Origin: Owenia fusiformis
Taxonomy: Eukaryota; Annelida; Polychaeta; Sabellida; Oweniidae
Assembly (NCBI GenBank): GCA_903813345.2
Contig: CAIIXF020000011.1
Span: 32,914,166-32,978,165 of the forward strand
Reading direction: 5' to 3'
Length of the DNA: 64,000 nt
The position numbers were made by a program, and so were the translations under genes. Positions 2,730-52,479 of the stretch are shown piece by piece. The notes beneath the pieces were generated by a model, which was given only the letters and a program-made list of their open reading frames with translations, had not been told where the DNA came from and searched no databases. Each line of letters opens with the position of its first letter. Within the stretch, counting starts at the first letter, position 1.

Positions 2730-2784
2730 GTCACCAGTTGAGAAACAAATTCAACAATTATGTAGCAGAAGTTCCAAAAATTAC

Positions 2785-24635: not shown

Positions 24636-27600
24636 CTAGTTGTTGAGCATAACAGCGTTTATCCATGGGACGAATGATGTCACCCTCTGTCCTATGCCCG
24701 GTAAGGCAGGGTCGCCAGCAGGGTCGTATCTTGAAATATAAATTACATTTCCCTTTGTAAAGGTAACAAGACTACAACAAGATAAATAAATAATTTTAGC
24801 ACTCAATACAAAAATGGTTCAAAAGCTGAATTGTTAAAGGTGTAACAGTTAATTTTCAGTTTAAATCACATATGATACGCCCGGTGATCGTACAAAATGG
24901 ATGGAGGGGGATTAGGCGATTTCTGCAAGAAAACTCAACAAATTTGGAACATTTATTTTTTCAAGAGAAAATTTACAACTGAATTGCCAAATGAATAGGC
25001 GTAGTGCATGGCAAAATATGTTAGGCCATCTAGTATTTCCTTTGAACTGATACCCTTCTAAGATATGAGATCTATTAAAAAAGGTGCATCATCACCAACG
25101 TGCAAAAGTCAATGTTTTTGCCATAAATCGGGCAACAATGGTCTACACGACCTGTAATAAATAGGTATAAGGGACGTTATTGTCACAATACTAATGACAT
25201 CGCTCACTTTTTAAAGTTGGTTTCCATGCGTTACACAAAAAATAATCAAATTAAATTAATATTGGATGGAGGGGGGATAGGATGGAGGGTATATATATAT
25301 ATATGATCTTTGACCCCTTTAATTTGAATATATAGATGGTTTCTTATATCCAAAATCTATTTTGATCAAGTACTACATTTATATCTAGAAGTACTTTTGA
25401 AGGGAGTCTCTTTCATAAAAACATTCGGTGATATGAGTGAGCCTATGTGCTGGAGAATGGTTTCATAAAAATTGAAGTTAATGCTTGAATGCATATGATC
25501 GCTTTGTTAACTTTAACCTGTTTGATTTTCATTAAAAGCATTGTATTTTTTATTGTAACATGATTCGCTTACCCCCAGGATACGACACCTATAGCGCGGA
25601 AAATACCATTAGCGCCCTTGTGTAGGAACGCTCCACCGGAATCACCCTACAAAGAATATATTGGCTTGTATTAGTAGTTCCGTATGGAATTATTAACTTC
25701 AGGCATACTTGAGCTTCAGCTGTGTCTACACGTATGGTAGGAATATCTGATTCAGGTGTTATGGATAATTTACTATGGCCCCCATATTTTCTCGACTAGA
25801 GCCGAATCCAGAATTCTTGAAGTAGTCCTGCAGCGCAGATGAACTGGTCATTTTTACCTCGATTGATCCCGATTTGAATAAATATAACGAAATCTCAAAA
25901 TAATCATAGGTTTTAGACCGATCTAAAGATGGCAACAGCCGTAGGAATTTACTATAATTTATCTAGTCAGTGACTGCTTACATGGAAGAACCAAGCTAAA
26001 ATATATTGACTGTCATGCATCTGTATTAAAAATCTTTCTATCGCCCTTTTGGCTAAGAAAATAACGGAATATTGCGTTGTTACTTGAAATTGAGTGGTGA
26101 CAGTATGTTTTCATCATGTTATTAATTAAACTTACATAACCAGTATCCTTCATTGGTGTCTCATGGCATATGTTACTGTCGAAGATTATATCGGACCTTC
26201 CATTTTCAAGCAACATAAACACACAATCGTTATTTGAGATAATAGGTAAGTTAACATGGTGGATGTTATCTGGGTAGCTGCAATCTGTAATCACAATAAT
26301 AAGAAACAATTTCTGCCCACTCATTTTAGTATGTATCTTGCTTCTTTTACTTTAACTGGAGTTTATTATTCCTCGTATTACTAATATCAAGAGCAACGTT
26401 TGGTTTAGTTCTAGAAATTAGCTAGAAATCCTCACATTTTAACTGTCCAACCCGAGTCAATGTAACCCCATATTAAAACCTTTTTTCAATTATGGTTGAA
26501 TCTTATACTTTCTTTCTTTTTTTTCAAGCTGCATACAAGAAACTCATGCATTTCTCTAACAAAGAGAATGCAGAAATTTATTGCGTCATATGGCTAAATC
26601 CTTAAAGAAGTAGACCTAGGGGTCATGGTTGATAGAACGTTAATGTCCAAATAAGGGCTACACGTACATTTAATTGCCCCCTTGTAACAATGAACTGTTA
26701 ATGTTGTACTCACCGGAACAGAACGTCCCCCAACCAGCCACAATAGACTGTTGCCCGACGTATAGATTTCCCACTTCGGGCATGCACACTGGACGAATGT
26801 CATCGGTATAGTTTAGGGCATATGGCAATTTAAACATCATAATATCGGCTTCATATGTCTACGAAATGAAATCAGACAATCGTTACACGGCCAACCCATC
26901 CACGTATGTGACTTCAAATACTAGGATGTAAAATCAATTTTAAACTTTACGTATGCTCACAAAGGATAGGTATCGATATGGTGAACTGAATTCAACAATG
27001 TTTTTTTCTTAAACCAATTATTGAAAACAGTTTGTAGAAAACACGGTCCTTTATGTAATGTTGACTGATTGGCAACAATTTAATGCAAAAATTAGTTATA
27101 CCATAACTGTTTTTGTTAACATTTTTTGTTTTTTAGTGCAATTGTTTTTTGTTCCTTTCTACCAATTATTGAGAATGAAATGAAATGTCTTTCCGAACCT
27201 TGTTGGAACAAATAGCATATACAACATTTTCTTAGACCTCTCAATATTATACTTATACAAAGGAAATTTTGGTTGATATAAAAGATATGCAAAAACCTAA
27301 AACAAAACCCCTCAAAATAGATACAAATTAAGATAAACCTTTTATTTCATTAACAAGATACTTTTTTTTAAATCAACCAAACTTTCCTTTGCACAATTAC
27401 AATATCGAAAGACCTAAACACGTTGTGTTTATGTCGTTTTGTTCCAATGAGGTTCGGATAGATGTTTCATTTCATTCCAAACATATGATACCAAGAACAA
27501 AAGATGTGTTTTCTAAAACAATATAGAGAAATATATATAATATTTCAAATTATAATGTTACCATTCAAAAGATGCCCATTAAATATGACGTTGTGTAAAA

Positions 27601-30600
27601 TTTTCAGAATGTTTTGATGACTGGTTTAAGAGAAACGCGTGTTCAAAAATTTCACCATATCGATACCACTCCTTTGCATGTAATAATAATCATTACACTT
27701 TTTGAAGCATTTTTCAACCAAAATGAAGGTTAGTATAAGGTTAGTATAATTTTTATGTCACCACCAAAACTTGTGACGTATTGTTAAGGTCTTTATTTCA
27801 AAACCATCTACAATTTCCCAGAAGTTCAAATCTGACTTGAGATTTGAAATTTGACCTTCAATGGGAGGGTTAAAGAGGTTTTTTTTTTTTTTTTTTTTTT
27901 TATTTATTTATATATTTATACAAAGAATACAGTAAACAAATGCACATGTGCTTGTGGCTGGGCATCAGCATTATCAGCCACGTTATATAATGAAAATCAA
28001 TTAACAGTATTCAATCAATTATTAAAAAAGGGGTTGTATTTGTGGAGGGTTACAGTGGTGGGGGTGACCTAGACATTTTTACATCGTTCAAAAAAGATGG
28101 CACTACATTTGAGGATACTTAAGTTTACAGCTTTAGGTAGCCTTTTATCGCCATTGAGGATAAGGGAGAGTTTGTCTCGTTGTGATCTATATTTAGTAGA
28201 ATATTCTATGTTCATATTTTTTAATTCATTTTCAAATTCTGTCCAAAATGTTGATCTTAGATTACAGTGAAAAATTACGTGATTGGTTGTTTCACCATCC
28301 ATTCCACACTGGCAAATGGGGGAGTTTATATTAGTGAAATTGTGAGCGTAAAGGTGAGCCTTAAAAATGAGATCACAGCGCACTCTATTGAAAATTATTT
28401 CTTGTTTTCTTGAAACGGAGAGATCTGATGAATTTGTAACATCGTCATTGAATAGATCTATTTTAAGTCTGGATTTGAATATACTAAGGGTAGGTAAATT
28501 TCTTATTTCAGGTGAAAGCTTATTCCATTCAGTCAGTGTTTTTGATATGCAAGATCTATTAGAAAATGAGGATTTATTAGGAATTGTGTAGCTCAGTTGA
28601 TTTCTTAGACCATAAGCATGGTTTCTTTTGAGAGGCTCAAATATGTTAAGAACATAAGAGGGCTGCATATTGTTATGTGCCCTATACATGAAAATGCTTC
28701 TGTGATATTGACGCCTCTTTGTTAATGTTGGCCAATTTAAATTATTCAACACTTTAATTGTCGAAGTCCCATGTAGAGTACCTGAACAAATGCAAGCGGC
28801 TTTATAGTAAAGTCGATCTAATAACTGTAATTTTGTTGTGTTTGCACACCCATATAAAATATCACCATAGTCAAAAAGTGGCAGGATAAAAGATTTAAAG
28901 ATTGTTTCGAGATGTTTTCCATTTATTTTCTGACAGAGCGCTTTCAGTGGATTTAAAAGTTTGTCTATTCTTGCACCAAGTTCAGTTATGTGAAGGTCAA
29001 AAGTGAGATTTCTGTCTAGGATTAAGCCTAAGTGCTTGTGGCTGTTTACTCTTGGTATAATGTCGTTTCCGAGAGAAAGATCTATGGTCAAAATTTCACG
29101 TTTCTTTGGATTGGAAAAGGTCAAATCTTTGCTTTTAGAAGCTTTAAAATTTAATTTCCATACTTCAGACCATTGAAAAATATGGTTGAGATCCTCCTGT
29201 AGGGCATTGTTCATATCAGTTGCTGTTTCAGCTGTGAATGACTGGTAAATTGAGGTATCATCTGCGTAGATGAAACATTTTGAATTCAAATTGTCAGGTA
29301 AATCATTGATATAGATCAAAAATAAGAGGGGCCCCAGGATCGAGCCTTGAGGAACTCCGGAATTGATATAACCCTTTTCAGATAAGTTTGACTCATGACC
29401 GTCTAATACCACCTTCACTTGTCTGTGTAGTAAATATGATTTCATCAATTCCAGGATATTCGGACCAAAACCAAACATTTTCAATTTTCCTAATAGTAGC
29501 CCATGGGGCATTGAATCAAATGCAGCCGAAATATCAAGATATATCCCTCTTACATTAGCCCCATTTTCAATTTCATTTGTTATGTGGTCAATAATACTTA
29601 GAAGTTGTGCCTGTGTGCTATGTCCTGGCAGGAAACCACTTTGAAGATTGTAAAATAAATTGTTAGAAATGAGATGATCAAAGAGTCTTTTAAAAATAAT
29701 GCGCTCGGCGACTTTAGAAATACAAGACAGGAGTGTTATTGGGCGATAATTTTTCACATCTGTTTTATCTTTGTTTTTATGAATAGCTACAATATGACCG
29801 ACCTTCCATTAGGGCCGTGCCATTCGACCGGAATCGGTCCGAACCGCGGACTTTTGTTAAAATACCGGAATTCGGAATTTTAATATCATGTTCCGAAGGG
29901 TTTCGGAACAATATCGGACCCTTACCTTAGTACTTGCTTTGAATCGTTAATATCCGTGACCATTGTTCCTCCAGTGATGTTTTCCTTCAAACTACATCCA
30001 ATTTGCATGTGTATTACTCGCATAAACAAAATAAATAGCGGAGAAATCAACAGAAATCAAGTTTTGTTTTACGAACTTTGACAATTACGCATGCGCATTA
30101 TGGTCAGAGCAGCCGGAAGTGAAAACAAGTAGAAAAAAGATCGAATTTTCTCTCTTTTTACAGATTTTAGAGTCTATTTCTTTCGTAAAAACATTCAAAC
30201 TTGCTTGACAGGAAAGGTAAGTGTTAACCTGACAAACTTGGACGACGATATCGTCATGATCGCCGTCGAACTCACTCATACATAATTATTTTCATTTGTG
30301 AACCAAAAGGGGTTCCGAAAGTTCCGATTCCGTGAGACCAAGTTCCGGTTCCGATTCCGAACCGTCCGAACCGGTTCCGGCACAGCCCTACCTTCCATAG
30401 TTGAGGATATTGATTCAAAGTAAACATTTTGTTAAGCAGTTTTGATAAAATAGGTGAAAGTGATGGTGCTGCCATTTTTAGCATTCTATTACTCAACATG
30501 TCAGGGCCAGTGGCTTTATTAATATTTAAGCCGAGTAGAATGTTATAGACTTCTCTGTCATTGGTAGAGAGCAGGTCAAATGTTATATCGGTTCTTGGAA

Positions 30601-33600: not shown

Positions 33601-36600
33601 ACTTTGACTTGCGCATGCGCAGTCGCCGTGGTAAACAAAACAAATGTACTGAAGTACAGATCAAGTGTACGGATATTTGCATGGGATATACATTCTAAAA
33701 CTAGTGTTTTCTCGGTGATTAAGAATATTCCAGTGGCCACATTGTATTGAGTTCAAAGATAACAGACTGATTTTACCGTTGGTCCATTTATGTTGAAAAA
33801 GTATTTGATTTTATCTCATAATTTGTCACTCGTAACTCGTTCGTAAGCAGGAAATGGCTTGTGATAGAATACGTAGAGGTACAGAAATATAACTATGGCA
33901 AATGTTCAAGTATTGTTTACACCTCGAAGTCATCCCTCGAATGTTTATTCATTTCAGAATATAATCGCTTGATGATCTTAGTAGAAAAGGCAATATATTT
34001 GGGAACCTATTTACACTATATAGTCACCTTTGGGGCCTTTAGACCGCGACCCTAAAATCTTGATGGCCGTATCAGTGGTGGTTGGAGAGTTGTCCCTGTC
34101 GTAGGTCTGTTTGCTGAACGTCCACCCCTATTTGCCCAAGTATTCGCTCTTCCACCTCTGGGTGGTCCGGTAGGTCGTGGGCCAGAATTACTCGGGTCAG
34201 GAGGTATCATATTGATGATTCTATCCAGGTCGTCACGATCAGTCACCTCGAATGTGTGCCTCTTTTTTCCAGTGGGGATAGCATAGATCTTACCATAAGA
34301 GCTCCATGCCCTCTCGATCTCTTCGTGCTGCTTCAGTTTATAGAGTAGGTCTCTGTTCAGAGGGCTCAGATCTTCATATATGACAAGCTGGGATCCTTTG
34401 AGGAGGCGTTTGTTTTGCATCACCCAGTCTTTGACAGGTCTAAATTTAAATTTGACAATAATCGCACGAGGTTTCGCATCCCTTGTAGCAGGGGAATATG
34501 GACCTAGCCTGTGTGAGACCTCAATATCGTTTTCTTCAATGGGAATTATCTCCTTTAAGCTATCCACAACACTAGCTGGGCAATTTTCCTTACTTGCTTC
34601 ATCTGGGTTTTGCATTTCAGGGACACCTAGGATTCGTATTGTGTTTTTCCTCGAATATTGAGCGTTGTGGTTTGTACTTCTAGTCAGATCATCTACACGC
34701 TCATTAAGTCTCTTGATATCAGATTTTAAGTCCTGATTTTCTTTTTTTAGATCAGTGATGAGATTGTTTGTATCTTTCATAGCTGTGGTCATGGCTTTAG
34801 AGACAGCTCTATCAATAGAATTTTCTAATTTTGATTCTAGTCTATTCATGAGTATATCCATGCAGTTTAGGAGCTTAGGATCTACATCTGTGGTATCCTT
34901 GGCATAAATCGTGTCATGACAAGTAATAAACTCCTCACCAGTTTCACTGAAGGCACCCGTACTATCATCTCGTAGCTTGCGTTTGCTATTCTGTCGTTCA
35001 TCGCCGTCTGGTCCATCGTTTTTGGCTCGTCCGCCATCTTGTCCGCCATTTGCAAAACTTTTTTTGCTTTCAGATCCACACTGAATAAAATCCGTAATGG
35101 TTGCTTGTGACATCTTGCTTCAAGGTTTTATCGTGTTTTAAATGTCTATAAGAGTCTTATGCGTGTCTGCAATCATCAATAAGTATCACTTGCCTCTCGT
35201 ATTTCAAACAATTACCATTTTAATCGAGAGCCTTTCAACAGCTAGCAAGTCATTACTAACCGGAAGCGCAAAAACGTACTATTTTTCAACTTGCTTCAAA
35301 TTGATCAATTTTTATCAAAATCATCTACAGGTTCCCAAAAGTTCAAAGGTGACTTCAGGACTTAAGATTTGAGATTTGAGCTTCAATAATCCTCTCAAGG
35401 TCAAACAAAAAGGTCAAAAAGATTTTTTTCAACTTGCTTCTTTATCAATTATTTGTCAAGATCATCTATAAATTCTCAGAAGTTCAAATCTGACTTTATA
35501 TTTTAGATTTGACCTTCAATGACCCTCTCAAGGTCAGAAAAGGCCAAAATGGTCTTTTATCAACTTGCTTCAAATTGAGCAATTTTTATGAAGACTTGAC
35601 CTTCACTGACCTTCTCAAGGTTGAAAGGTCAAAAATGTTTTTTACAGCTTGCTTTAAATTGACCAGTTTCCCGGAAGTTCAAATCTGACTAAGATTGAAC
35701 TCATAATATTATGAGCAACTTGGTGGTGACATTTTGTCATGTTAATACCTTGTTGAATCATGTTTCCGCTAAGATGTAACTATGAAAACCCATATCGAAT
35801 TAGGTACTGAACCAAATAATCATTTGTAAGGTTGGTCATTTATTGAGAGTATTTTCAAAATGACGTCCATGGGCTTTTTTGGGCGAAAATCAAATAATTT
35901 CATCATCTAAAGAATATTTGACGATTTATGTTGGCTATTTGTACATTTAACGAATGACAGTATGATTTATCTGACATTATTTTGATTATACAAAATACTT
36001 TACAATCTTCGAGAGTCAACCTACCTGTGAGTCATAATCTGGGTGTTTCACTATAATAGTAGGCTTTAGCATTACTCCATCATTTTGATCGTTCCAGGTA
36101 TGTTTTCCAACCCATAGCTCGTAGTCCTCATGCGTATCTGCAGGACTAAAATATAAGAATGGAGTTTTGACTCCGATAACACGCTACACCACTATATATT
36201 ATACTGTAAAAGTGACTTTGTTTTATATATTTTTTATACATATATTATAATTAGTCCACAGTTATTTTGCAATTATCTGTTTTACTACTAGTATATTGTT
36301 TATCGTGACTCACTTAGAGAGGCAATGCATGGCCGACACAACCCATTGGTTGGTTATGAGAAATCCTCCACAAAGAAATCTACCCGATTTCGCCATCATC
36401 ACCTACAAGGAAAGGATATCTTATATTTTTGCTATCTCTTCTTAACGTTTAGTGCTTGACGTTTGATTTAGTACATCCTTCTCCTTTCAACAAGGACAGC
36501 GATTTAATGGGAGGGATAGAATATAAGAGTTTTATTTCCAAAGGGAAACATGATATTGGCCAAGAAAATATCATATTGACGCTGTCACAAAAGGTTGGAG

Positions 36601-37265
36601 ACCATATCACCACTTGTGGTGGTGAAAACTACATTTTTCTCTGGGCGATTACTACCTGCCATGGGAATTCTCCCCGTCTTGATGGGACTCCGCCCATTAC
36701 ATATCCGCCCACATCCGGGACATTCCCTGCATCCGGGTACTTACTAATTCCACATCCCTCTGAAAATGACAAAAGTTAAACAGCTTTTGCAACTAAGCTG
36801 AAGTTATTCGTTGAACAGTTACCCATAAACAACCCGTCAATCTCTATACATGAGCTAAACTTATTATGATGAACCTCTAACACCGATTCTCTGTTACGCA
36901 ATTTGACACTTGGCCTTTGGGGAATAAAAACTCCAGTCGGTATTTCATACATGTAGTTCAGAGAAGTGACCCCTACATGTATATAGTCATGCACTTTCTC
37001 AATAAATTCCTCAAAACAAGAATTTTGCGTTGATAAAAGTTGAGTGTCAATTATGATTTCACTTAAGTTTACACTGAGAGAAAGAAAAAAGAAACATGTT
37101 AAAAGAGTGTATTACCTAAAAATCTATAAAGTGACCAAAACAGCCCCCAGTGCCCGTTGAATACGTACCTTCCCACTGTTCTGATGGTTTTACGACTGCT
37201 CCTCGTACCTTTAAGCAGTACACAGTGAGAACAGCAAGAAGACAACCGATGGATGGACCCAGCAT
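24636..37265 (-). CDS. secreted S1A (trypsin-like) serine protease, paralogue 1, eight exons
   Basis: I assembled eight exons from splice sites and protein continuity: 37265-37169, 36759-36656, 36402-36314, 36145-36025, 26858-26714, 26284-26136, 25646-25573 and 24729-24636. They total 873 nt, giving 290 aa with no internal stop. Exon 1 encodes a signal peptide (MLGPSIGCLLAVLTVYCLKV). Exon 2 carries a short propeptide with Cys (EGCGISKYPDAG) and the new N-terminus VMGG after Tyr. Exon 3 holds the catalytic His (WVVSAMHC), exon 5 the catalytic Asp (EADIMMFKL), exon 7 the catalytic Ser (GDSGGAF). Exon 8 ends PWINAVMLNN. The specificity residue Asp189 (KDTGYGDSGG), Gly216 and Gly226 are kept, predicting cleavage after Lys/Arg. 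Cys191, Cys201 and Cys220 are absent, and a CSGDC (CxxxC) pair is added. Intron 4 is over 9 kb because of a LINE and MITEs. The tandem paralogue lies at 39814-52479. Confidence 0.88.
26964..27673. mobile_element. foldback element with GGTATCGATATGG ends
   Basis: The left end (aggtatcgatatggtgaac at 26968) and right end (tttcaccatatcgatacc near 27652) are inverted. Inner segments, such as 'tgaaatgtctttccgaacct' and its complement near 27450, are also inverted. It lies in intron 4 of protease 1 and is the uninterrupted relative of 19246-20172. Confidence 0.75.
28069..32359 (-). CDS. LINE ORF2: hydrophobic leader, 2A-like motif, APE endonuclease and reverse transcriptase (interrupted by MITE)
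   Basis: Two open frames, 32359-30272 and 29757-28069, are one ORF separated by the insertion at 29810-30390. Removing 581 bp plus one 8-bp duplication leaves the same frame, about 1233 codons. N-terminal residues 1-140 contain three hydrophobic segments (about 41-61, 75-99, 112-134). DVHPNPGP follows at residues 148-155 (nucleotides 31918-31895). The APE-type endonuclease comes next: GLCEVG, YYRSPSQ, INGDFNA, SCIDLLIS and NTDHCS. The reverse transcriptase has INKATGPD, LQSGFLPGHST, LDISAAFDS, GVPQGSILGP and YADD (near 29259-29269). A C-terminal CQCGMDGETTNHVIFHC motif closes it. All catalytic motifs look intact. Confidence 0.85.
29802..30398. mobile_element. hAT-type MITE (581 bp) with 8-bp target duplication, inside LINE ORF2
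   Basis: The element spans 29810-30390. Its ends are TAGGGCCGTGCC and, inverted, TAGGGCTGTGCC. CCTTCCAT is duplicated exactly at 29802-29809 and 30391-30398. An 8-bp duplication with TAGGG-type ends is diagnostic of the hAT superfamily. Subterminal GGTTCGGAACC-like repeats (ccgaaccg, ggttccg) flank an AT-rich core without a transposase. Confidence 0.92.
34052..35113 (-). CDS. LINE ORF1: coiled-coil and RRM-like RNA-binding protein
   Basis: A 353-residue protein with the layout of LINE ORF1 proteins. It has a charged N-terminus rich in Gly and Asp, a coiled coil at about residues 85-150 (LITDLKKENQDLKSDIKRL and following), then the RRM-like core beginning YSRKNTIRILGVPE and continuing with VSHRLGP, AIIVKFKFR and KDWVMQNKRLLKG. 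The C-terminus is Arg/Gly-rich (PPRGGRANTW), usual for RNA binding. Its role would be to coat the element's RNA for target-primed reverse transcription. It lies 1.7 kb upstream of ORF2 on the same strand, inside the same repeat-bounded insertion, so I assign it to the same element. No stop or frameshift is seen. Confidence 0.85.
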   Translation of the reverse strand: MSQATITDFIQCGSESKKSFANGGQDGGRAKNDGPDGDERQNSKRKLRDDSTGAFSETGEEFITCHDTIYAKDTTDVDPKLLNCMDILMNRLESKLENSIDRAVSKAMTTAMKDTNNLITDLKKENQDLKSDIKRLNERVDDLTRSTNHNAQYSRKNTIRILGVPEMQNPDEASKENCPASVVDSLKEIIPIEENDIEVSHRLGPYSPATRDAKPRAIIVKFKFRPVKDWVMQNKRLLKGSQLVIYEDLSPLNRDLLYKLKQHEEIERAWSSYGKIYAIPTGKKRHTFEVTDRDDLDRIINMIPPDPSNSGPRPTGPPRGGRANTWANRGGRSANRPTTGTTLQPPLIRPSRF

Positions 37266-38874: not shown

Positions 38875-38876
38875 TT

Positions 38877-39290
38877 TTGTTCTATAAGTTATTGAATGAT
38901 TTGAAGTGCAATACAGGATATATTCTGCTCGAGAGATTCCATATTGGAACGAGACAAAGTCAAGTGCCAATACAGAATATCGAGAGCAGAATATATCCTA
39001 CCCTGCGTGCAGAGTCTAGTTAAACTACGAAGCTCTCTTTTAAGAAGTGAAGTCAAACGAATGCAAAGGGTAAATATATCCTGTATTGCACTTCAAATCA
39101 TTCTATAACGTTTTTATCGTCTGATCCTCTTTTGCTACTGAGAATGCCCCCTTCTGTATTGCGACGGAGATGATCAATGGGGACAATCTCAATAGCAATA
39201 CAGATTGGTACAGCACAAGAACTGACCATTCAGAAGGCTTCATTTTACAGATCATACGATAAAACAATGTATTGCTCAATGTTTTCACAT
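38877..39290. repeat. dispersed inverted repeat with 'caatacaggatatattctg' core, copy 1
   Basis: It starts ataagttattgaatgatttg and contains gaagtgcaatacaggatata, with an inverted counterpart near 39065-39100. The rest, to 39270, is shared with 61585-61910 in the opposite orientation (gatcatctccgtcgcaatacag and related blocks). It is a MITE-like family without an ORF. Confidence 0.7.
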
Positions 39291-39813
39291 GTGTACATGA
39301 TGTACTTATTGGATATATGATTTATCTTAGGAAAAACGTTTTGATTGTCCTTTCCAGAAATTGATAAGACCGCAAGAAGAAATTACAGATAATTTGATGA
39401 AAATATTTTTGAGGTGGTACCAGTTATTTAGCTTATTATTATTCTATACATGGGCCCCCATTATAAGTACATTGCACAGTGTACTTATTACTATATACAA
39501 ATAAAAACCTTAAAAATTTCATAATCGGAATTGCAAATAGTGTACCAGAACCTAGTTCTAAATTCCTTTCGTTAAATCTTGTTATCCCACTCAATTAATA
39601 CCGCTTTTCGGATCCGTCGTGCAACTGTTATTGGGAACCAATTTCAACAGCTGATTAGATTTTAACGGCCATCGTGTTTTTCTGGCATCCATTTTCAGAA
39701 GACATTCAATAATGTTATTGCGGTTTATATTTTAATGCTTACTCAGTATGGCACAAAAACATTACAACTTAATTTTTTTTTCTATTTCGTCAATTTAAAA
39801 GTTACAGTCCAAT

Positions 39814-42800
39814 CTAATTGTTTTGCATGACTGAATTGATCCATGGGACATAGGTCGACACTCTTGCACCAACCCCTGGTAAAGCAGGGTCGCCAGATGG
39901 CGTGTAACTGGAAAACAGAAACGTTATACATGGGAAATAAGTTGAGAAATTTAACGATTGGATTTACATTTATAAAATTAATGACAAGACGAGGTCAAAC
40001 AAGGGTTACCTCATTGCCCATGAAGCTGATGCGTAATTTGACATTGATAGTTCTCTTCAATTTTTACTTATCTTTATCTGCTTAATTTTTACTCTTCCTA
40101 CTTACCCCCATGATACAATTCCAATCGCACGGAAAATGCCATCGGCACCTTTGTGAACAAATGCTCCACCGGAATCACCCTGCAATATCCAACTTACTAC
40201 TTTTACTTTTACTACAGTTTCCGAGGGTTTGGAAAATAGATACATAGATACATTGTTTATGCACTCGTATGTCTTTTAATTTTATCAAATTTCAAACAAT
40301 TAAAATTCCAAATATAAGAGACAATATGAGAGGATAACTTAAAAATCGAGACTCACACCGCCAGTATCCCTAAATGGCGTCTCGTGGCATATATTGCCGT
40401 CAAAAATCTCGCTATTTCTACCATTCGCGATCAGCATAAGTTGACAATCAGCGTTGGAGATGATGGGCAGGTCCACATGCTCGTATGTGTCTGGATAACC
40501 ACAGCCTGAAATATAGAAAAGTAGCGTGATGTAGAATGAAACCTACAATGGCATCTGTGAACTTTGGGATATTTGTTTCTGTCTAGTTGCAAGGAGAATT
40601 GGCTCCAAGGGTTCCATCTCGATATTCTGCCATATAAGGAGTCATGTCCTGATTACGAAATTTGATATCAAACTGCCGCCATTTCTTCACCTTCCTTTTG
40701 GTCTTTTAACTATTTCCAAACAAAAAATTCAAAACTAACAAGAAGTGGTCAAAATATTAGATAAGATCTTTTGGACCGCTGATTATGAATTTAAAGTCAG
40801 TTATAATATCAGAAAATAATGACATTTTCAATGTTGTCGCCGATCAAGGTCAAGGTCGAATATCGATTTGAAGGTCTGGGAGCCAATCCTCCTTGGTCTG
40901 GTTGGTAAAGTCGACAAAGGGAGCATGCGCAGAGACTACATACAGAACGTATACACCAAGTACCTACCATCGCATAATGATCCCCAGCCAGCCACTATTG
41001 CATCTACTCCTACATACTGGTTGTTAACATCTGGCATACACACTGGACGGATGTCTTCCGTCAAGGTCAGTGGTTCTGGCAACTTGAACATGGCGATATC
41101 AGCCTCCATTGACTGTAATTCAGAATCAAAGGCTAGTGAACTAAGGTCAGGTGATCACATCAAGAGATTGAAAGCCCATGATCGCATGGATTAAATATGC
41201 CGATACTTCAGTTTTCCTCTCACTCAAAGAGGTAACCGGTTTGGAACTTAGGATACTTTTTTTGAAATTTAGCCTCCATTCGTAACTGTACTTTTAAATT
41301 GTTGACATGAAACGTAAGTGTCTTTAAGATGAACATAATGCTTACAATGAACAAAAGTAAAATAAGAAGACACGTCGGCTTTACGAATATAATCGTATTC
41401 TAAGACAAAGGCTATTTTGTAGTAAATGCAAAACATTGTCATTACGACGTACGTTGATAAGTAAACCGGTGATAAGTCGATTATAAAAAGTTGACCCGAA
41501 TTGAATTGAAACAATGGTAATACATCAAGTCCATATGCTAGAGTCATTTGCTTTGCTTCATTTCCTGTCATTCAGAGATTAGTACTTTGTCATGAAATAT
41601 AGCATTTTCCTCAATGAATGTAAAGATGACATTGTCTTACGAATCAATGATAGTCACATTACAACGGACATGAAAAATGAAGTTATTTTTTATACGATAT
41701 GATGCTTTGTGAATGTAAATACTATTTTCTTAATTGGATGAAAGAATGATCATGAGTGGCAATAACAAGTATTTGGAATCATAGGAGCTGTTTTTTGGCT
41801 CAGACAGTACGCCTGATGTATGGCATCCATGAGCTGTCGTTTCAAGATGCAAGATTTTATTGTGTTTCAAGCCAAAACAATTGATTTATGATCCAGATTT
41901 GTCTCTCTGGTTATTCATTTAATATCTACTTTAGAACACCATACTGACACTTTAAAAAGCCCAATCGCCCAGAATCGTTTGATAAGCTATTCAATCTGCG
42001 ACGGAGACCTAAGCAGGGTTTGAAATCCATAAGGCGCACTACCGCAAGTTTGTGTCATGCTGGTCGCGGCTTTTCGTACACTTAATCACCAAAAGGTGAA
42101 GGTATCCACGACCACAAGACAGTGTTATTAGCATTTTTCGAAAATGACAAGGTAAAATTAAAATCCTATCAATAACTTCAGAAAAATGATAGAATGATAT
42201 AATTAAAGATTGAAATGATTTAAAGATAAGAGATTAGAACATCCTGTACTATTTGCATTGCCTATTAAGTCGATTTGTATGTGAAAAATATGTGTATTTG
42301 AAAATATACCAATGCAATGAAAAAAAGTGAGCTAGCTTAAAGCCTCACTATGCTTATTTTCAACATTCTTTGGCAAAATAAAGACTTACTTTAGGACTTC
42401 ATAGTATTTCCAATGGATTGAAAAGTACTTTATCTTTCATTAGACATCAAAAATAGCTCAAACGGGCCACATCAAAGCTTACAATAAATTATTAAAAATA
42501 TTTTTGATCTGTCAAGTGTTTATATATCAGGTTTTTACCAATGTCAATGAAAGATGGCGAAGTTATTTGTTGAACATAATTCATTCATTTTTATATAATT
42601 TTATAATGACCTTTTTGGTCATTACCTGGACTTTTAGGCCAAATTTTCAAAAATAGGCCTGAATTTTTCAAAATTTGGGGATTTAGGGGCCCAAATGATT
42701 TTTTAATTCCAAATTCGGGCGCCCCTTGCTAACTTCTGGATCCGTCAGTGGGACTCCCCCCCAAACCCCTCTCAAAGCATGTTCATTTTGCCCACTCTTA

Positions 42801-45800
42801 GCGAACACTCACAAAATACGCCACTGTAGCTTATCTGACAGCTCATCTGGATATTCTTAAAGATAATGTGATCATATACATGTATGGAATAATAAATAAA
42901 AAAGCCAAATTGATTTTTTTTTTGACCAATGAATGAGTATTTCAAACAATTTATACAAAAAAATATATTCCAATGTTAAAAACTAATGTTTCGTTTTAAA
43001 ATACAGACGTTAAATTCACAATATGTGTGCAAACATAATTGTAATAAACTGAAAAAAATAAGATGATAAAAATCATACTTGCGAATTGTACTCAGGGTGA
43101 GGGATAAGAAATGTTGGGTACAGTTGAATACCATCATTGGGGTTGCTCCAGGAGTGTTTGTTCACCCATAGCTCATAATTGTCGGGATCATTATCTGTTG
43201 GACTAAGTGAGCATAAAAGCATAATATTAGCATAGATCTAGAAGCATAACATTGCGAATACACATTCACAAGGAAACCCTCCATTTGGGGGGAAATAAAG
43301 ATTAAACAAACGCATTTTTTGCATAGTTCCCGTGCAGGGCGTGCATGAGTATCTGAACTTGACATTCATAACGAAGTAATAAAAAATGAGAAGTAGCATT
43401 CCAGGGGCTTCCAAAAGAGGAGGAAAACCATGCCTGGACAAACTAATTCGTTGTACAGATTTTAAAGATATAAGAGGGGGAAATACCAGAAGTCATAGAT
43501 GAACTTATCTCCTTTCTCATTGTTTCTTCTCAATGAATTATGGTTTGGGATAGTTGGGGTTTGTTTTCATTATGAATTTTTACGCTTAGATGGGTTCTTT
43601 TTCGTGATGGGTTCGTTAACAATCTTTTGTTCTTTTCCTTTGGCACTCGTGCGTACATATTCAGATAAAGATCGAGAGTGCTTCATCTTTACATGGAAAG
43701 AGGGTCATCAATGAATTCCGAGATATACCCCCTCTTACACCCCCTCTTCTGAGTACAGTAACTCACTTGTTTAGACAATGCGCAGCTGTGACAACCCATT
43801 GCTCTGTTATTAGAAAAGCTCCACAAGAATGTGATTGTCCCCTTCTGGCAAACATTACCTAAAATTGTTTTTGGAATTAATTGATTACGTGCTAAGAAGG
43901 TTTACAAGTTCAATTTATAAAACTGGAATTTTTTCAACAAAATTGATATAGAAATATACTACATTGTATCATCATTATCAAAGTAACAGAATTGCATAGA
44001 AATCCGTGGACCTTGTATATGTTGTTTAGTTTAACCTTCTTTTGACCTCATTTGACCTACATTCTTGTTGAGGTCAAAATACGCACCCTCTGTTTCAAAA
44101 GTCTTTTCCTATTGAGAAAACCCTTAAATAACTTTTGTATAATGCCTTGGTCACATAGGCTCCGATTTTTACTACGGCGCCCGGCCGATGAGTATTTAGT
44201 TAAAAATCGGCCGGCGAGCCCGGGCATCGTACGGGCGCCGGGCGATGATCGCCACTCATCGGCCGATTTTTAGACATCGTACGGGCGCCGGCAGAGTTTT
44301 ATCGCGGAGATAAAAGTTGCCGATGTCTTGGCGATTTTTTCTCAACCAAACTCATCGGTACCTACCCGGCCGTGTCCCGTCCGGTCATCGTACGATTATC
44401 TTACGGCGCCCGGTGGCATCGCACGGTTATCTTGGGATTTTGCGTGCTGATTTGTTTGATAAATCTTAATAATGATTACTTATAAAATAATGAGGCAATG
44501 ACTAATTATTACTACACACTGTCAGAGATTTTTTATAAAACATAAATGGAACGATTAGGCTTACTGTAAAACAATGACACACATTTGAATGGCTGGGTGG
44601 GTGGGTTGATCTAGTCGTTCTTATGTTGGCATTAATCGTGTATGCCTGTCATACACATTGAATAGAGTGATACATTTTTATGCGTATATTCACTCATGCA
44701 TACACCATTACAAATCATTTATTTAAAAATCTTCTGAATGTTTTTGTGAGTACAGTATTTTCAAGGGTCACAATTTTAATACGAAAGTTCACTGTCTCAA
44801 TTACAGTTAATATGCCAAAGGCTAAGGATATAGGGGATAAGGCCAATGGGCCATATACGAGGAAGGCCTTGGGAAGACAGGTGGAAAAAGACAATAACAA
44901 TGCTAGTGAGCTGGTGGATGATGAAGATTTAGATGTGTCTAGGGAAGAGGGTATTCCACTTTAAATAGAAGAAAAAATTACCAAGTTCTTTGAAGATAGG
45001 CCATATTTTTATGACCAAACAAATTCTCTTTACGAGAACAGACAAAAGATACAGAAATATGGATTTTGCTAATAGCATCGGATGGACAGTTAGACATCGT
45101 ATTTGTTTATATGAAAGATCTAAAAATGAATTAAGGCCTTTGATGAAAAGACCACGTGCAGTATGGCAAGTGATTTTAGACGGTCATATCTTTCATCATG
45201 AGTACTTTCTGGGCATAAATACAGTGTTTTTATGAAAACAATATGTTTTCTTTCAATTGAAGTACCCATGATAGTAAAAATATCAATCAAACAATTTGAA
45301 AAATTATGGGACCCCATGTCAGCATTTTTTCTGAATATTGAACCTATTTACTCAAAAGAGGATCTTCTTTTTCTGATTTTTATTGCATGAAAACATTATT
45401 ATCCTGGAAGTCCTGTCTATCGAAATATTTCGTTTTCAAATCTTGCATTCACGCCATGTGGAACATTCATACTGGGACATACAAAAATTAAGTATAAATC
45501 TAGAGGCCTGTAGATCGACCGATGTCCTGGCGGGTGCCGTACGGCCATCGGCAGATAGCCTTGCGATACCCGTGCGATGTCTTTCAGATTCAATTGTTTG
45601 CGGGCGCCGTACGATGCCTGTACTTATGTGACCATACTCACGATTAGATCAAGACATCGGTGAAAAGTCACCGGCGCCCGGTCGATTTAGAAATCGGCCG
45701 ATGACTACTCATCGGCCGGCGCCCGGCGGCTATGTGACCTAGGCATTAGGCAAGTAAACTTAATTAAACTTTCCATGCATAATTTGAGGCATATAATACA

Positions 45801-48800
45801 GCCTCTGTGAAAATTTGGAGACAATTGATTGATTTTTACTCAAAATATCACATATAGAACATAGCATATACCAAAAACACCAATGTGACTTTTTCCAAGT
45901 TTGTGACGTCAAACTTACCTAAGATTGCCAAACTGACCAAAATCAGGTTGCTCTGTAAAAGTATGCAGACAAAAGTCTCTATATATAAAATGCTAATTAT
46001 GAGCAGAATGTGTTATTAAATATACAAAAAATGTACTCTGAATGTCCTCATACATTTTACTAACAGCCCTGGACCATGCTGTACTCAACTTAAAATTCAG
46101 AAATATGTTGTCACAATAAGCACTGCTATCCTTAATATATCAATGTTCGGTGCATTATGATTCAGAATTATTGAAATAAAATGGAAATATGATAGATTCT
46201 TTTGAATTAAATACCAAAAGTACATCAAGAATATTTAGAAGATAAACCCCTGAGAAAATCATATTGACACATTAGTCACAAAATTATACTTATTGATTTC
46301 ATTGGGCAGGAAAGGGGTAAATATTAAAGGCCCCATATAAAGTTTAAACCACTTTGGCTTATATTGTAGTCTTACCCAATGTTATCAAAGTGTGATATGT
46401 GAAACTTTTTTTTTAAATTTCAAAAAGTGGTTTTTGATAGATTTTTTGTTCCAAAATTTGTGAATTTATTTAAAACCCACTTTTAGAGGTCACTCATATC
46501 TTCTAATTAGCCACAATTCATACCAATGTATAGCATTCATTCTCCCATGCTTTTTGCCGAAAAAATTAAGAAAATCGGTTCATAAATAAGCGAGAAATGA
46601 ACTTATCAGTGCATGAAAATGGTTCTGAGAAAAATGCATTTCAAAATTTTAGTTCTCATAGAAACCAATGGAACAATGATATCTAAAACATAATTTATTC
46701 TTCCTTTTAACCTGGTTAGACAATCAACATTGGTTTTTTATGAAAGTCTAACATATTTAGGAAAGATTGACATCGAAAAAAAAATTTCAGTTTTAAAAAA
46801 AAAGTTTTTGGTACCTTAGTGACTTCACTAATGTTTCAAAATATTTTTGATATGCTAAAACATTGAAGTGGCCCATTAAATATGGCATTTTATTATTGAA
46901 ATAGTGTGTCCTTTGTTCAATCTTTGCATTGGTGTTAAAAATATAATCTTTTTTGAAATGCATTAAGAAATATTTGATGATTAAGAAATTTCAACTTCTT
47001 TTGAAAAATGGCGGGAAATTTGAATATTTGAGAAATGAAATGCCCACAACTTTTTTTTCAAAAATTTTTTTTTGTTCAAAAATCTCTAAAATCACTTTTG
47101 AAGTCCTGACAAATAGTAAATGAATGATAAAAAAATATTTTCAAACTTTAGACGGGGACTTTAAGGAAATATGGCATAACAATGAACAGTTAGGCAATAC
47201 TGTTCTAAGACCCAAGTGTAAGGACTTTTGCATTGTTATTATACAGGTTTCAGTGACACCACTATTTTATAAAATATACAACTCTCATGAACAGGATCAT
47301 TTGTAAAGTCTATAACATATTCTGATTGCTCATTATTAGCATATTATATATAATTACCTTTGTCCATTTAGTTTTGCAGAGCAGCCTGACTTTGGTCAGT
47401 TAGGCAAATTTAGGTAAGTTTGACGTCACAAACTTGGAAAAAGTCACATCGGTGTTTTTGGTATATGCTATGTTCTATATGTAATATTTTGAGTAAAAAT
47501 CAATCAATTGTCTCCAATTTTTTACAGAGTGTGTATTATATGCCTCAAATTATGCGTGGAAAGTTTCATTAAGTTTACTTGCCTTATACAAAAGTTATTT
47601 AAGGGTTTTCTCAATAGGAAAAGACTTTTGATACAGAGGGTATGAAGAATATTTTAAATGAATCCCCATCCCTATGTTCATGATGTTGTTAAAGTTATAA
47701 AATATAACTTATTGCTTTTCTAGAGTAAGAATGTTCACGTAGTCCAAGTATTTCTTATCAAGTTATTCCGATAAGTTCATGACAGATTTGTGTATTGGAA
47801 TGTATATGGGAATTTGTATCAGACTTCCCTAATAATGAAATTCGTACTCAAATTTTGCTATGGTGATTTATTTTGTAATTATTAGTTTCAATACCAGCCA
47901 TGGGAATTCCCCTTGTCTAGAAGCGACTCCTCCCATCACGAAGTCCGATGCATTTGGGATGGCCCCTGCATCCGGGTACTTGCTGACGCCACATCCCTCT
48001 GCAATAGTATTTTGACTACATTTGACTCGAAATTTTCCTTCATTACACAAATAAAGACATTTGTAGAGGAATTGGCATGTTATCTTTGTAAAAAGATGAC
48101 AACTGTACATGTACCTACCATGCTTACGAACTCGTCATGCTCACACTCGTATTATTTAACTTATTGCATTCTAATAGGAAATGGCATTCTGAACCGGTTT
48201 TCTTGTTACACATTAAACATTTTCTTTCTTCAATAGGGGTAATTGGTTTTGTGTAACGACCTGTTTCGATTTCTAATTCATGTGCGCTAATTCTTAGCTT
48301 TGTCACGTTATTTCTGTCTATTTCATTTTTGATTAAATCCAAGTAGGGTTCCTTGTTCCATTTTGCTTTTATTATCTTATAAAACCTCAATTTACCATTA
48401 TTTGATTTTATTTTAGTTTCCCAAAATGGTATGTATCTATTTTCCAGTAATTTCTTAATTTCTCTTGGTTTTAAGTTTAAATAGTTTGGTGAAGTACCAT
48501 TGTAAATATATTTAAGTACATCATTGATGTGCGTGAGCAATATAACTTTATTTTCCAGGTACAGTCTCTACTATCTATGGATGACAATATGAGAGTCACA
48601 GACAATTGTTTTGAGTCACCCAGTATAATCTCTCGTCATCTTAAAGCAACAAGCTGGTTTAATATTATTAGCAAATTTCGAGAAAGCTTTTGATAGTATT
48701 GAGTGGTCTTACCTTGATAAATGTTTGAAAAGATTCAATTTTGGCGAAAGTTTTATACGATGGTATCATGTTCTTTATAATCGATCCGAAAGTTGCGTCA

Positions 48801-51800
48801 TAAACAACGGCCATTTTTCTACTTTTTTTCAATTAAAACGAGGCTGCCGGCAGGGGGACTCCTTGTCGTGCTACTTATTTATACTAGCTCTAGAGCCTCC
48901 CTGCATGAAAATTAAGAATGATAATAGTGTAAAAGGTGTCCAAATCTTTGACAAAACAATAAAAACGGGTATGTACGCAGATGACACCTTTTTGATCCTT
49001 GACGGAACACCTCCATCCTTGAGAACATGTATTGACATTTTTCAAAAATTCCATTGTGCGTCTGGCTTAAAATTGAACGTTGATAAAACCTCAGCTATTT
49101 GGATTGGAAGCAAAGCAAATTCAGATGAGAGATTATGTAAAGATATTTCTTTGAAATGGGAAACGCAATTTAAACTATTAGGTTTGCAACTGCCTTCCGA
49201 CCTACGAAATGTAGAAACGCTGAACCTCGAATCGAAATTAACAGAAATGCAAAGTGTAATTAGCAAATATAAACGACGGAATCTATCTCTACTTGGGAAA
49301 ATAACGGTTTTAAAGTCTTTTGTTTTACCAAAAATAGTTCATTTGATGCTGGTTTTACCCAGTATATCGGGTGAGTTCCATAAACGAATTAAAAACCTTT
49401 TTACTACATTTATTTGGAATTCCCCAGTCTCTAAGGTAAGTTTTTCTCAATTGGTCAAAGACTACAAAGACGGGGGTTTAAGAATGATCGATCCACAACT
49501 ATTTGAAAACTCATTAAAACTAACATGGTTGCAAAAATTACTTAGAAATGGCACCTGGCAACATATTGCCATAAAAACTTTAGGGCTGGAATCAGGTAAG
49601 GAGCTATTTACATACGACACGAAATCATTACAAAGAATTGAATGTAGCGTTTCAAATACGTTTTGGAGAAGTTTTACTCGTGCCTTCCAACATTACACCC
49701 AAATTCAAGAGCGTATTGTAGAAAATAATCAATTTCTTCACGCGGAGAATATTTTGTGCAATTCCTGGTTAAAATATACGAGAAACGAAAATGTTAAGGT
49801 TATCATTAAAGAAATTAAAGGCGCGAAAGAAACACTTGTACTTCGAGATATGTTTCAGCCGAATAAACAAGTTCTTAACCTTAACGAATTTAACCAAAAA
49901 TTTAAGGCAAAGTTAAACTTCCTGGACTTTTTATCTTTAAAAAACTCAATACCAAATGACTGGATTAAGACAATTTTAACTTGTGAACATAATATGAATG
50001 AAACCCGTACGGTTAAAAAATACTTGAATAAGTTTCTATCTCATTCAAAAATATGTAAACAAATCTACTGGGAATTTATCAAAAGTATACCAATAAACGG
50101 CACCTATTCGGAAAAGTGGAATATCGATTTGAATACAACAATTGAAACAGGAGACTGGGAAATAATAAATAAAATGAACAAAATAAGCAATTTCGAACCT
50201 AAACTTGCATCATTCAACTATAAAGTAATACATAGATTTGTTACGACCAACAAATACTTAAAGATGTGTGGTCTAACAGACTCTGATATGTGCACTTTTT
50301 GTCGGATACATGTAGAAACAATATGCCACCTTTTTCATGATTGTGCAATAGTCCAGAACCTTGTACAAGATATAAAACAATGGCTCCCAAAAGAATATGA
50401 GCATTTCTGTAACAAGCAAACTATCATATTAGGACCAAATTTAATGACCAAAGAGGCGGTTGTCTTAAATAACGTTTTTAGTATTTTTAAAAGATATGTA
50501 TTCCTATGTAAACATTCTAGAGTGAAACCAACATTTAGAGGTTTTAAGTTAAATGTATTAACCTACTACAAACTAGACGTAAGTGTTGGAAGAGGAGATC
50601 AATGGGATCCTCTAAACGATATACTTTCGACTGATTTTCCTTGATAATTAAGCATAATTGACTTTACAACGTGTATGCATCTATTTCGATATATTCGATT
50701 CTGTAAACATTATGTGACAAATATGTAGCTGTTCTTGACTTAAATAAATATATATTAAAAAAAAAAAAAAAATCTCTCGTGGTGTACGTTCATACAGGAA
50801 CCAAAATGATTTCAGGGATTGCAGTCACGTGAATGTAAATAATTGCTTGATGCCATAGGTACTTTTAAAGTGACAATAAGCATTTTATAGGCATACTAAA
50901 TTTCACCCAATCAGTCTAATTTTTTCACAGTGAATAGATCAATCAATTCTCTACTTTGTGTCGAATTCTCATTTGAAATTTTTTCAGCTATGCGTAACCA
51001 TGGTAACAAGGGTAAGCATGGGTGGCATTGGTTTTTTAATGATAATTGAATGTTTTTGTCATTTTTGCTTGATTTCGTTTTAATGACTCAATTACCACAC
51101 ATGATATGTCTAACAAGCATGGTAATGCAATTGCCAAGCAAGACTCACATGCCCATGTGTTTGCTGTTGAGTTCTAAATTCAGCAACCAATTGTGCTATG
51201 ACATCACAATGATATTTCTAAGAAAATGCAATCTTGGACAGGCACTTCAAAAGAAAAGGAAAGACACAAGAGACAATCGTTTGTTACACATGGACAATGC
51301 CCCAACACACAGGTCCAAGCTAGTTCAGGATACTCTTGCAGCATTCATGGACATGCCTCAACTTCCACATGCTCCATATAGCCCTGATACTGCTCCTTGT
51401 GATTTCTATCTTTTTCCCACCCTTAAGATGGCATTAAAGGGACAATCCTTTCAGACATTAGCTGAGCTGCAAATGGCTGTACAAAAACAGCTGAACACCA
51501 TGGCTGCTGATGGATTTGGGCATGTGTTCTCTGCATGGGTGCGCCGACAGAAGAAAGTAATTGAACTTGGAGGAGAATACATTGAGGATTGAATATAATT
51601 CAAATGGATGATCATCAGGAATAATAAGGAATGATATGGATTATTATTGAACTTACTGCGATATGCTTTTCATATACATCTTGCATTGCAAAATATATTG
51701 CACCAGCAAACTTTTCATTGAAAATCCATTTGTTATTATGATGAAAATAGCCTTAAAAATGAATTCCGGGTGTATGCACCATGATCCAAGAGAAGTGCTC

Positions 51801-52479
51801 TATCTCAAAATGCATTTGCATTTAGTTAATAAAATTTTAACATCTAATAGATAATTGATTAATCTTTATTTGTACAAAGTTTCATTCAAATCTGGTAAAG
51901 GTAAGCGTGCCTATAAAATGTTGTCCATTACTTTTGAATCACCCCTCGTACACTGTTTCTTGTCACGTTGAATTATATTATGATTTGGAATAGTTGGGAT
52001 TTGTTTTCCTTATGACTGGTGTATTAATAGATGTTTTCTTTTTCTTGCTGTCTTCTTCACAATTTTTGATCCTTTCCCTTTGGCACTTGCGCAATGCGCA
52101 TACTGTATATTGATCCACGAGGTGACCCGTTAAGCGCGCCATATTGATTTTCACAATCATTCAATTTCATATGATATATCATTTTACATGTCGTCATTGA
52201 CCCTCCCCTCGAACGAGTTTAATTTGTTTTTCCACAACGGTCGATGATTAGACACAATTTTTCTATTATAATACATTATCTTTTAGTGCTTTATAATTTG
52301 TACTGTTGCCTCGCAAGCTCTCAATGATTCCTGAAGTCAAATTTCATAGAAAGAGAACTGTTAAAACCTGGTTACGTACCCACCCATTGTCCAGACGGCT
52401 GTTCGACAGCAGCCCCTTGTACCTCTAAACAGTATATGGTCAGAACAGCCAAAATATAGCTGACGTATGGAACCATCAT
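39814..52479 (-). CDS. secreted S1A (trypsin-like) serine protease, paralogue 2, eight exons
   Basis: Exons: 52479-52380, 47998-47895, 43858-43767, 43202-43079, 41112-40968, 40505-40357, 40179-40106 and 39907-39814. They total 882 nt, giving 293 aa. Exon phases equal those of paralogue 1, and five of the eight exons have identical lengths. Exon 1 gives a signal peptide (MMVPYVSYILAVLTIYCLEV). Exon 2 has the Cys propeptide and DF/VMGG at the activation site. The catalytic triad lies in WVVTAAHC, EADIAMFKL and GDSGGAF. Asp189 is present (RDTGGGDSGG). Cys191 and Cys220 are both missing, and the CDGGC pair is kept. The exon 2 donor is gtattg (after PWL), weaker than in paralogue 1 (PWQ, gtagta). 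Introns 1 and 2 are swollen by a LINE, a mariner and a nested foldback. It arose by tandem duplication with paralogue 1 and is probably a digestive or extracellular protease. Confidence 0.88.
41113..43078. other. intron 4 of protease 2
   Basis: About 2 kb of AT-rich intron. A short weak relative of the 'gtcaccaccaa' repeat lies near 42060-42120. No ORF or element with clear ends is seen. Confidence 0.4.
44812..45150 (+). pseudogene. degraded MADF/Myb-like transposon ORF
   Basis: An ATG follows an acceptor-like tctcaattacag. The frame reads MPKAKDIGDKANGPYTRKAL, with an acidic stretch, to a stop at 44962. In the same frame it then reads KITKFFEDRPYFYDQTNSLY, which resembles the start of MADF domains (short helix, then P-x-L/F-Y-D). 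Two stops near 45067 follow. In another frame, SIGWTVRHRICLYERSKNEL resembles the second half of that domain. So one stop and one frameshift disable it. Confidence 0.55.
45163..45405 (+). repeat. second copy of the 11909-12608 foldback arm
   Basis: The block tggcaagtgattttagacgg, gtcatatctttcatcatgagtac, gggcataaatacagtg, then gaagtacccatgat, matches 11915-12140 at high identity. Its left boundary (acgtgcagtatggcaag) shows the sequence that is interrupted at 12609. Confidence 0.75.
46324..47164. mobile_element. TTAA-flanked transposon, copy C (833 bp)
   Basis: The element at 46328-47160 lies between TTAA at 46324-46327 and 47161-47164. It begins AGGCCCCATATAAAGTTT and ends AAACTTTAGACGGGGACT. 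It is collinear with copy A, including the 'accactttggctta.attgtagtcttacccaatg' start and the 'atgaaaagc/atgaaatgc' section near 47040. No transposase. Confidence 0.8.
48124..48540 (-). pseudogene. 3' fragment of a non-LTR retrotransposon ORF2
   Basis: A minus-strand frame of 138 aa gives only the extreme C-terminus of a LINE protein: HELEIETGRYTKPITPIEER followed by the motif CLMCNKKTGSECHFLLEC. It resembles the C-terminus of the fragment at 14189-15040 (AIETGRF, then CLLC..., HFLLDC). The polymerase domain is absent. Confidence 0.65.
48627..50780 (+). mobile_element. 5'-truncated L1/Tx1-like LINE with poly(A) tail and target duplication
   Basis: The insertion starts about 48637, inside the reverse transcriptase domain, and ends in an A-run at 50757-50772 after AATAAA near 50742. 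The sequence AATCTCTCGT occurs just before the 5' end (48627-48636) and again right after the A-run (50771-50780). Truncation, tail and duplication together are the signature of target-primed reverse transcription. It lies in intron 1 of protease 2. Confidence 0.88.
48638..50644 (+). CDS. LINE reverse transcriptase, C-terminal 668 residues (5'-truncated, otherwise open)
   Basis: The open frame has no ATG of its own; it runs from the truncation point (ILKQQAGLILLANFEKAFDS, reverse transcriptase motif A) to TGA at 50642. Further motifs: KRGCRQGDSLSCYLFILALE (motif B region), MYADDTFL (catalytic YADD), LGLQLPSD and LGKITVLKSFVLPK. The C-terminal Cys/His motif is CTFCRIHVETICHLFHDC. RGCRQGDPLSPYLF-like motif B places it in the L1/Tx1-like group, different from the CR1-like element at 28-35 kb. 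Lack of any stop over 2 kb suggests a recent insertion. Confidence 0.85.
   Translation: MLKQQAGLILLANFEKAFDSIEWSYLDKCLKRFNFGESFIRWYHVLYNRSESCVINNGHFSTFFQLKRGCRQGDSLSCYLFILALEPPCMKIKNDNSVKGVQIFDKTIKTGMYADDTFLILDGTPPSLRTCIDIFQKFHCASGLKLNVDKTSAIWIGSKANSDERLCKDISLKWETQFKLLGLQLPSDLRNVETLNLESKLTEMQSVISKYKRRNLSLLGKITVLKSFVLPKIVHLMLVLPSISGEFHKRIKNLFTTFIWNSPVSKVSFSQLVKDYKDGGLRMIDPQLFENSLKLTWLQKLLRNGTWQHIAIKTLGLESGKELFTYDTKSLQRIECSVSNTFWRSFTRAFQHYTQIQERIVENNQFLHAENILCNSWLKYTRNENVKVIIKEIKGAKETLVLRDMFQPNKQVLNLNEFNQKFKAKLNFLDFLSLKNSIPNDWIKTILTCEHNMNETRTVKKYLNKFLSHSKICKQIYWEFIKSIPINGTYSEKWNIDLNTTIETGDWEIINKMNKISNFEPKLASFNYKVIHRFVTTNKYLKMCGLTDSDMCTFCRIHVETICHLFHDCAIVQNLVQDIKQWLPKEYEHFCNKQTIILGPNLMTKEAVVLNNVFSIFKRYVFLCKHSRVKPTFRGFKLNVLTYYKLDVSVGRGDQWDPLNDILSTDFP
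50855..51950 (+). mobile_element. mariner-family element, internally deleted
   Basis: Ends share 'cattttataggca(t/c)(a/g)ct' in inverted orientation (left near 50881, right near 51905-51922). The outer right end reads cgaggggtgattcaaaagta on the minus strand and is TA-flanked; the left end is decayed. It contains the C-terminal half of a transposase. Confidence 0.65.
51050..51592 (+). pseudogene. mariner transposase, C-terminal part
   Basis: Residues from about 80 onward match mariner transposases: LLHMDNAPTHRSKLVQDTL (second catalytic Asp) and HAPYSPDTAPCDFYLFPTL (third catalytic Asp). I count 35 residues between these two Asp, one more than the classic D34D spacing. The protein end (WVRRQKKVIELGGEYIED) is complete. 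The N-terminal DNA-binding region and first Asp are missing or scrambled, so the copy is dead. Confidence 0.8.

Follow-up and report, generated by a model that had tools for sequence, protein, structure and literature searches.

Two tandem serine protease genes of Owenia fusiformis with an aromatic residue at the predicted zymogen activation site

In a 64,000-nt stretch of the Owenia fusiformis genome (GCA_903813345.2, contig CAIIXF020000011.1, positions 32,914,166-32,978,165 of the forward strand; hereafter the window, whose own coordinates are used throughout) we found two adjoining S1A serine protease genes, both on the minus strand in head-to-tail order, whose predicted activation sites carry an aromatic residue in place of the canonical Arg or Lys. 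We give an even chance to the reading that both encode working zymogens that would be opened after this residue by a chymotrypsin-like protease. In paralogue 1 the propeptide runs ...PDVGGY up to VMGG (first VMGG codon at 36700, minus strand) and in paralogue 2 ...PNASDF up to VMGG (47939, minus strand), with P1, the residue before the scissile bond, encoded by TAT (Tyr) and TTC (Phe), respectively. The initial annotation of this DNA had reported just these GGY and SDF junctions, and they stand. It had also listed the exon 2/3 joins among the points to verify; that join proved irrelevant, since exon 2 of both genes encodes P1 and P1' side by side and splice choice there cannot alter them, while skipping exon 2 altogether (104 nt) would disrupt the frame. 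Scanning both genes on the minus strand with the motif [IVL][IVLMTFA][GN]G, which would not detect a motif divided by an exon join, gave 13 matches; only the two known VMGG sites are then followed by a Pro-aromatic motif, and 0 of the 13 is preceded by Arg or Lys. In the stretch that separates the conserved SKYPDAG block from the conserved VMGG block, the paralogues share a single residue (a Pro) out of seven at P8-P2, and both have an aromatic P1. Such retention amid diverged neighbors is suggestive of selection for an aromatic residue, a hint that comes from two sequences and is not statistically strong. The propeptide region is about 30 residues long (by eye) with a single Cys, and in paralogue 2 an N-glycosylation sequon (NAS) occupies P5-P3 of the activation site, where it could affect access to the scissile bond.

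The exon models were read from genomic DNA and joined at GT..AG borders. All 14 introns of the two genes have GT..AG borders, and the eight coding exons have the same lengths modulo three in each (1,2,2,1,1,2,2,1), with intron phases (1,0,2,0,1,0,2) matching between paralogues. The span 24636-52479 given in the initial annotation corresponds exactly to the distance from the paralogue 1 stop codon to the paralogue 2 ATG. At full length the proteins are 65% identical, and a comparison of the whole coding sequences gave proportions of nonsynonymous and synonymous differences (pN and pS) of 0.213 vs 0.753, with a nonsynonymous distance (dN) of ~0.25 and saturated synonymous sites. Since pN is far below pS, both copies look constrained, and the duplication looks old. 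The earlier proposal that the shared change predates the duplication is the simplest reading of the two sequences, which by themselves do not polarise the change. No third copy of the protease was found in the window, where phmmer (E up to 1) recovered the known exons only and tblastn nothing else below E 0.04.

Searches against Pfam (E 0.001 cut-off) matched PF00089 Trypsin in both proteins (5.5e-49 in paralogue 1, 2e-49 in paralogue 2), the only other domain being DUF1986 in paralogue 1, which overlaps Trypsin; they returned no recognition domain (such as Sushi or LDL) in the propeptide and no clip domain preceding the protease domain of either protein. Using chymotrypsin numbering, assigned by hand from general knowledge on alignments to solved S1 chains and to 1ym0, we found the catalytic triad complete in both (His57 in SAMHC / TAAHC, Asp102 in EADIMM / EADIAM, Ser195 in GDSGG) and Asp189 present (KDTGYGDSGG in paralogue 1, RDTGGGDSGG in paralogue 2). 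Cys1 (EGCG) and Cys122 (RPVCMP) are also there, as C35/C162 in paralogue 1 and C36/C165 in paralogue 2. These features agree with the initial annotation. In the alignments both proteins have the trypsin set Asp189, Gly216 and Gly226. Cys42, Cys58, Cys168 and Cys182 are likewise present, and a CxxC in the autolysis loop (CSDC / CDGC) spans the exon 5/6 join (26714 and 26284 in paralogue 1; 40968 and 40505 in paralogue 2). Missing from both are Cys136/Cys201 and Cys191/Cys220; position 191 is Gly, position 192 is Tyr or Gly, and Tyr228 is replaced by Gly. The Cys191-Cys220 bridge and Tyr228, which brace the S1 pocket, are near-universal in S1A enzymes of trypsin specificity, and without them Asp189 alone becomes a weaker argument for a tryptic enzyme. 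By treating Asp189 as a trypsin-like sign the initial annotation overlooked the absences of Cys191-Cys220, Cys136-Cys201 and Tyr228, which make self-activation through an altered pocket conceivable. To judge from the alignments, trypsin-like specificity of the pair cannot be assumed from Asp189.

Under the reading that we favor, each protein would be secreted by way of its hydrophobic, signal-like N-terminus (a call made from N-terminal hydrophobicity), and the short Cys1 propeptide would hold the enzyme inactive until another secreted protease, chymotrypsin-like, cleaves after the Tyr or Phe. The new Val16 could then pair with Asp194 in the manner usual for S1A enzymes; the propeptide may stay tethered through Cys1-Cys122. 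Because they have no recognition domain, the enzymes probably act in digestion or as secreted effectors of another kind, and not as initiators of a cascade. The non-tryptic cascade of the initial annotation is in that respect overstated, there being no regulatory domain (Pfam) and non-Arg/Lys sites being already in print, although the chymotrypsin-like activator that it proposed is plausible.

Several points weigh against activation by a chymotrypsin-like protease. The aromatic-P1 pattern comes from only two sequences, and the motif scan would miss an alternative site with an exon join inside it. In one table that covers 74 enzymes of a single insect species, Tenebrio molitor, classed as trypsins or trypsin-like and all with Asp189 (PMC11172050; counts are ours), 18 of the 74 lack Arg or Lys before the cut, which shows the position to vary across the family, and 16 of these 18, SerP173 among them, carry regulatory domains, while the 29 enzymes of the table without a regulatory domain comprise 27 with Arg or Lys, one with Gly, one with Leu and none with an aromatic residue. 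Single-domain Asp189 enzymes with an aromatic P1 are therefore, in this one species, rarer than family-wide figures imply. Searches for orthologues also brought no support: in viral contigs one pattern had no match and the others gave 41 and 24 matched stretches with 0 relatives, and in prokaryotic genome contigs there were 37 and 61 matched stretches, again with 0 relatives, both being the wrong collection for animal DNA. Finally, the changes to the S1 pocket are extensive enough to keep self-activation in play.

Self-activation would mean that the remodelled S1 pocket takes aromatic residues despite Asp189 and that the zymogens cut themselves or each other, which we think unlikely. In its favor, Cys191, Cys220 and Tyr228 are missing in both paralogues yet occur in all five of the PDB chains displayed in alignment with paralogue 2 (two being factor D, and 554 the total of matching sequences), and in the chymase-locus enzymes of mammals absence of the bridge has been tied to binding sites that are more open (PMC4646688). 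Horseshoe crab factor C, moreover, is described as autocatalytically activated and, according to the title of a cited paper, is activated by alpha-chymotrypsin and not by trypsin. However, the Asp189, Gly216 and Gly226 that the pair retains are labelled the trypsin set in the Tenebrio table (PMC11172050), and neither protein has a regulatory domain. A broader version, in which an S1A lineage kept Asp189 while its S1 pocket and activation site were rebuilt together, with self-activation after aromatic residues and co-evolution of specificity and propeptide, strikes us as improbable.

It is rather unlikely, in our estimate, that the site is no longer cut and that the proteins are zymogen-like, inactive or acting without classical activation. 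A non-basic P1 would fit this, as would an incomplete zymogen triad (Met at position 32 in both; Phe in paralogue 1 and His in paralogue 2 at position 40, by hand numbering), through which zymogen control may be altered; but the catalytic residues, Asp194 (GDSGG) and the V-x-G-G start of the new N-terminus (VMGG) are conserved in both, and pN is far below pS. Aspartic proteases favor bonds that join an aromatic to a hydrophobic residue. Tyr-Val and Phe-Val, the P1-P1' pairs of paralogue 1 and paralogue 2, respectively, are bonds of this type, and opening of the zymogens by a cathepsin D- or pepsin-like enzyme in an acidic compartment is a further, doubtful possibility, for which the partner enzyme is hypothetical and Val or Ile is in any case the usual P1' of S1A zymogens (PMC11172050). 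That a gene-model or assembly error masks a canonical Arg/Lys junction is scarcely credible: the models rest on genomic DNA, but P1 and P1' are contiguous there, the exon phases agree and the motif scan revealed no alternative site.

Table 1. Coordinates of the two protease genes and their coding exons in the window
Feature	Position	Strand	Content
Paralogue 1 gene	24636..37265	-	Eight coding exons, 290 aa; stop codon ends at 24636
Paralogue 1 exon 1	37169..37265	-	Hydrophobic N-terminal segment, probable signal peptide (hydrophobicity)
Paralogue 1 exon 2	36656..36759	-	104 nt; propeptide Cys1 and junction GGY/VMGG; V16 codon 36700-36698
Paralogue 1 exon 3	36314..36402	-	His57 (SAMHC)
Paralogue 1 exon 4	36025..36145	-	
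Paralogue 1 exon 5	26714..26858	-	Asp102, Cys122, first Cys of CSDC loop
Paralogue 1 exon 6	26136..26284	-	Second Cys of CSDC loop, Cys168, Cys182, Asp189, Gly191
Paralogue 1 exon 7	25573..25646	-	Ser195 (GDSGG), His replacing Cys201, SWG
Paralogue 1 exon 8	24636..24729	-	Loop 217-224 without Cys220, Gly226, Gly replacing Tyr228, stop
Paralogue 2 gene	39814..52479	-	Eight coding exons, 293 aa; ATG starts at 52479
Paralogue 2 exon 1	52380..52479	-	Hydrophobic N-terminal segment, probable signal peptide (hydrophobicity)
Paralogue 2 exon 2	47895..47998	-	104 nt; propeptide Cys1 and junction SDF/VMGG; V16 codon 47939-47937; NAS sequon at P5-P3
Paralogue 2 exon 3	43767..43858	-	His57 (TAAHC)
Paralogue 2 exon 4	43079..43202	-	
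Paralogue 2 exon 5	40968..41112	-	Asp102, Cys122, first Cys of CDGC loop
Paralogue 2 exon 6	40357..40505	-	Second Cys of CDGC loop, Cys168, Cys182, Asp189, Gly191
Paralogue 2 exon 7	40106..40179	-	Ser195 (GDSGG), His replacing Cys201, SWG
Paralogue 2 exon 8	39814..39907	-	Loop 217-224 without Cys220, Gly226, Gly replacing Tyr228, stop

The introns measure 409, 253, 168, 9166, 429, 489 and 843 nt in paralogue 1 and 4381, 4036, 564, 1966, 462, 177 and 198 nt in paralogue 2. By appearance, intron 4 of paralogue 1 is mostly occupied by one same-strand long interspersed nuclear element (LINE; 28069-35119, minus strand), with an endonuclease open reading frame (ORF) at 30272-32365 and a reverse transcriptase ORF in a different frame at 28069-29808. 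Upstream in the element lies a 355-aa ORF (34052-35119, minus strand) whose Pfam matches are all weak and sub-cut-off, several of them to families of coiled-coil type, and which could be ORF1 of the LINE. Intron 1 of paralogue 2 contains, on the opposite strand (48629-51592, plus), a reverse transcriptase with zf-RVT at 48629-50644 and a DDE_3 transposase match at 51050-51592 that falls below the curated cut-off.

Elsewhere in the window, a 553-aa open frame at 17494-19152 (plus strand) matched UDP-glucuronosyltransferase (8.8e-79) and, being open across nearly the whole of that domain, is apparently intronless there. A 1211-aa open frame with C2H2 zinc fingers lies at 2766-6398 (plus strand) and includes 11.5 tandem copies of a 42-bp unit (4931-5409), and a second tandem array at 15337-16053 can be read as 7.7 copies of a 91-bp period or 23.1 copies of a 31-bp period. 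The 64 kb contain 15 copies of the palindrome TACATGTA vs 1.52 expected, a count that 0 of 100 shuffles reached. No Rfam family reached threshold in the window, and ARAGORN found no tRNA.

Non-tryptic activation of S1A proteases is already known, and the pair is a case of S1A zymogens with an atypical activation residue. Among 177 S1 genes of a moth the predicted activators were trypsin-like for 114, chymotrypsin-like for 16 (Phe, Tyr or Leu at P1) and elastase-like for 21 (PMC10036332), and in Drosophila His is given for the activation site of Psh and Hayan, with ModSP described as chymoelastase-like (PMC10732536). A direct precedent is Tenebrio SerP173, which has an F/VFGG site together with Asp189, Gly216 and Gly226, but also a clip-C domain that the pair lacks (PMC11172050). 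Similarly, in the Group 1b clip-domain proteases of the honey bee Phe or Leu replaces Arg before the scissile bond, again in proteins with clip domains, unlike ours (PMC1761132). The insect modular serine proteases (HP14, ModSP, MSP) share a non-basic site, which reads L/I in SerP449, the putative HP14 orthologue of Tenebrio, although Leu is not aromatic and SerP449 has LDL and Sushi domains (PMC11172050). Absence of Cys191-Cys220 is shared with mammalian chymase-locus proteases (PMC4646688), which however are vertebrate granule enzymes. The best solved match of paralogue 1 is component B of the earthworm fibrinolytic enzyme (1ym0; 4.5e-32), which ranks third for paralogue 2 (5.2e-32) after factor D in first place (3e-34); like the pair it has no Cys201, and its autolysis loop contains Cys residues, but it keeps Cys136, Cys191, Cys220 and Tyr228, and its mature chain starts IVGG. 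Factor C of the horseshoe crab is a multidomain lipopolysaccharide sensor. It is cleaved at a Phe-Ile bond, a detail not found in passages of PMC7878551, PMC10090249 and PMC10672452. Its reported activation by chymotrypsin resembles what we propose, but factor C has CCP and Pro-rich regions whereas the pair has no recognition domain. In the literature searched, no paper contained both 'VMGG' and 'serine protease' (as whole words). Should cleavage after Tyr and Phe be confirmed, the set of S1A zymogens that trypsin is not expected to activate would gain single-domain Asp189 enzymes, and a pocket in which the 191-220 bridge and Tyr228 are absent together would test the extent to which S1 can be remodelled with Asp189 retained. 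Each oddity of the pair has a precedent; their combination may be new.
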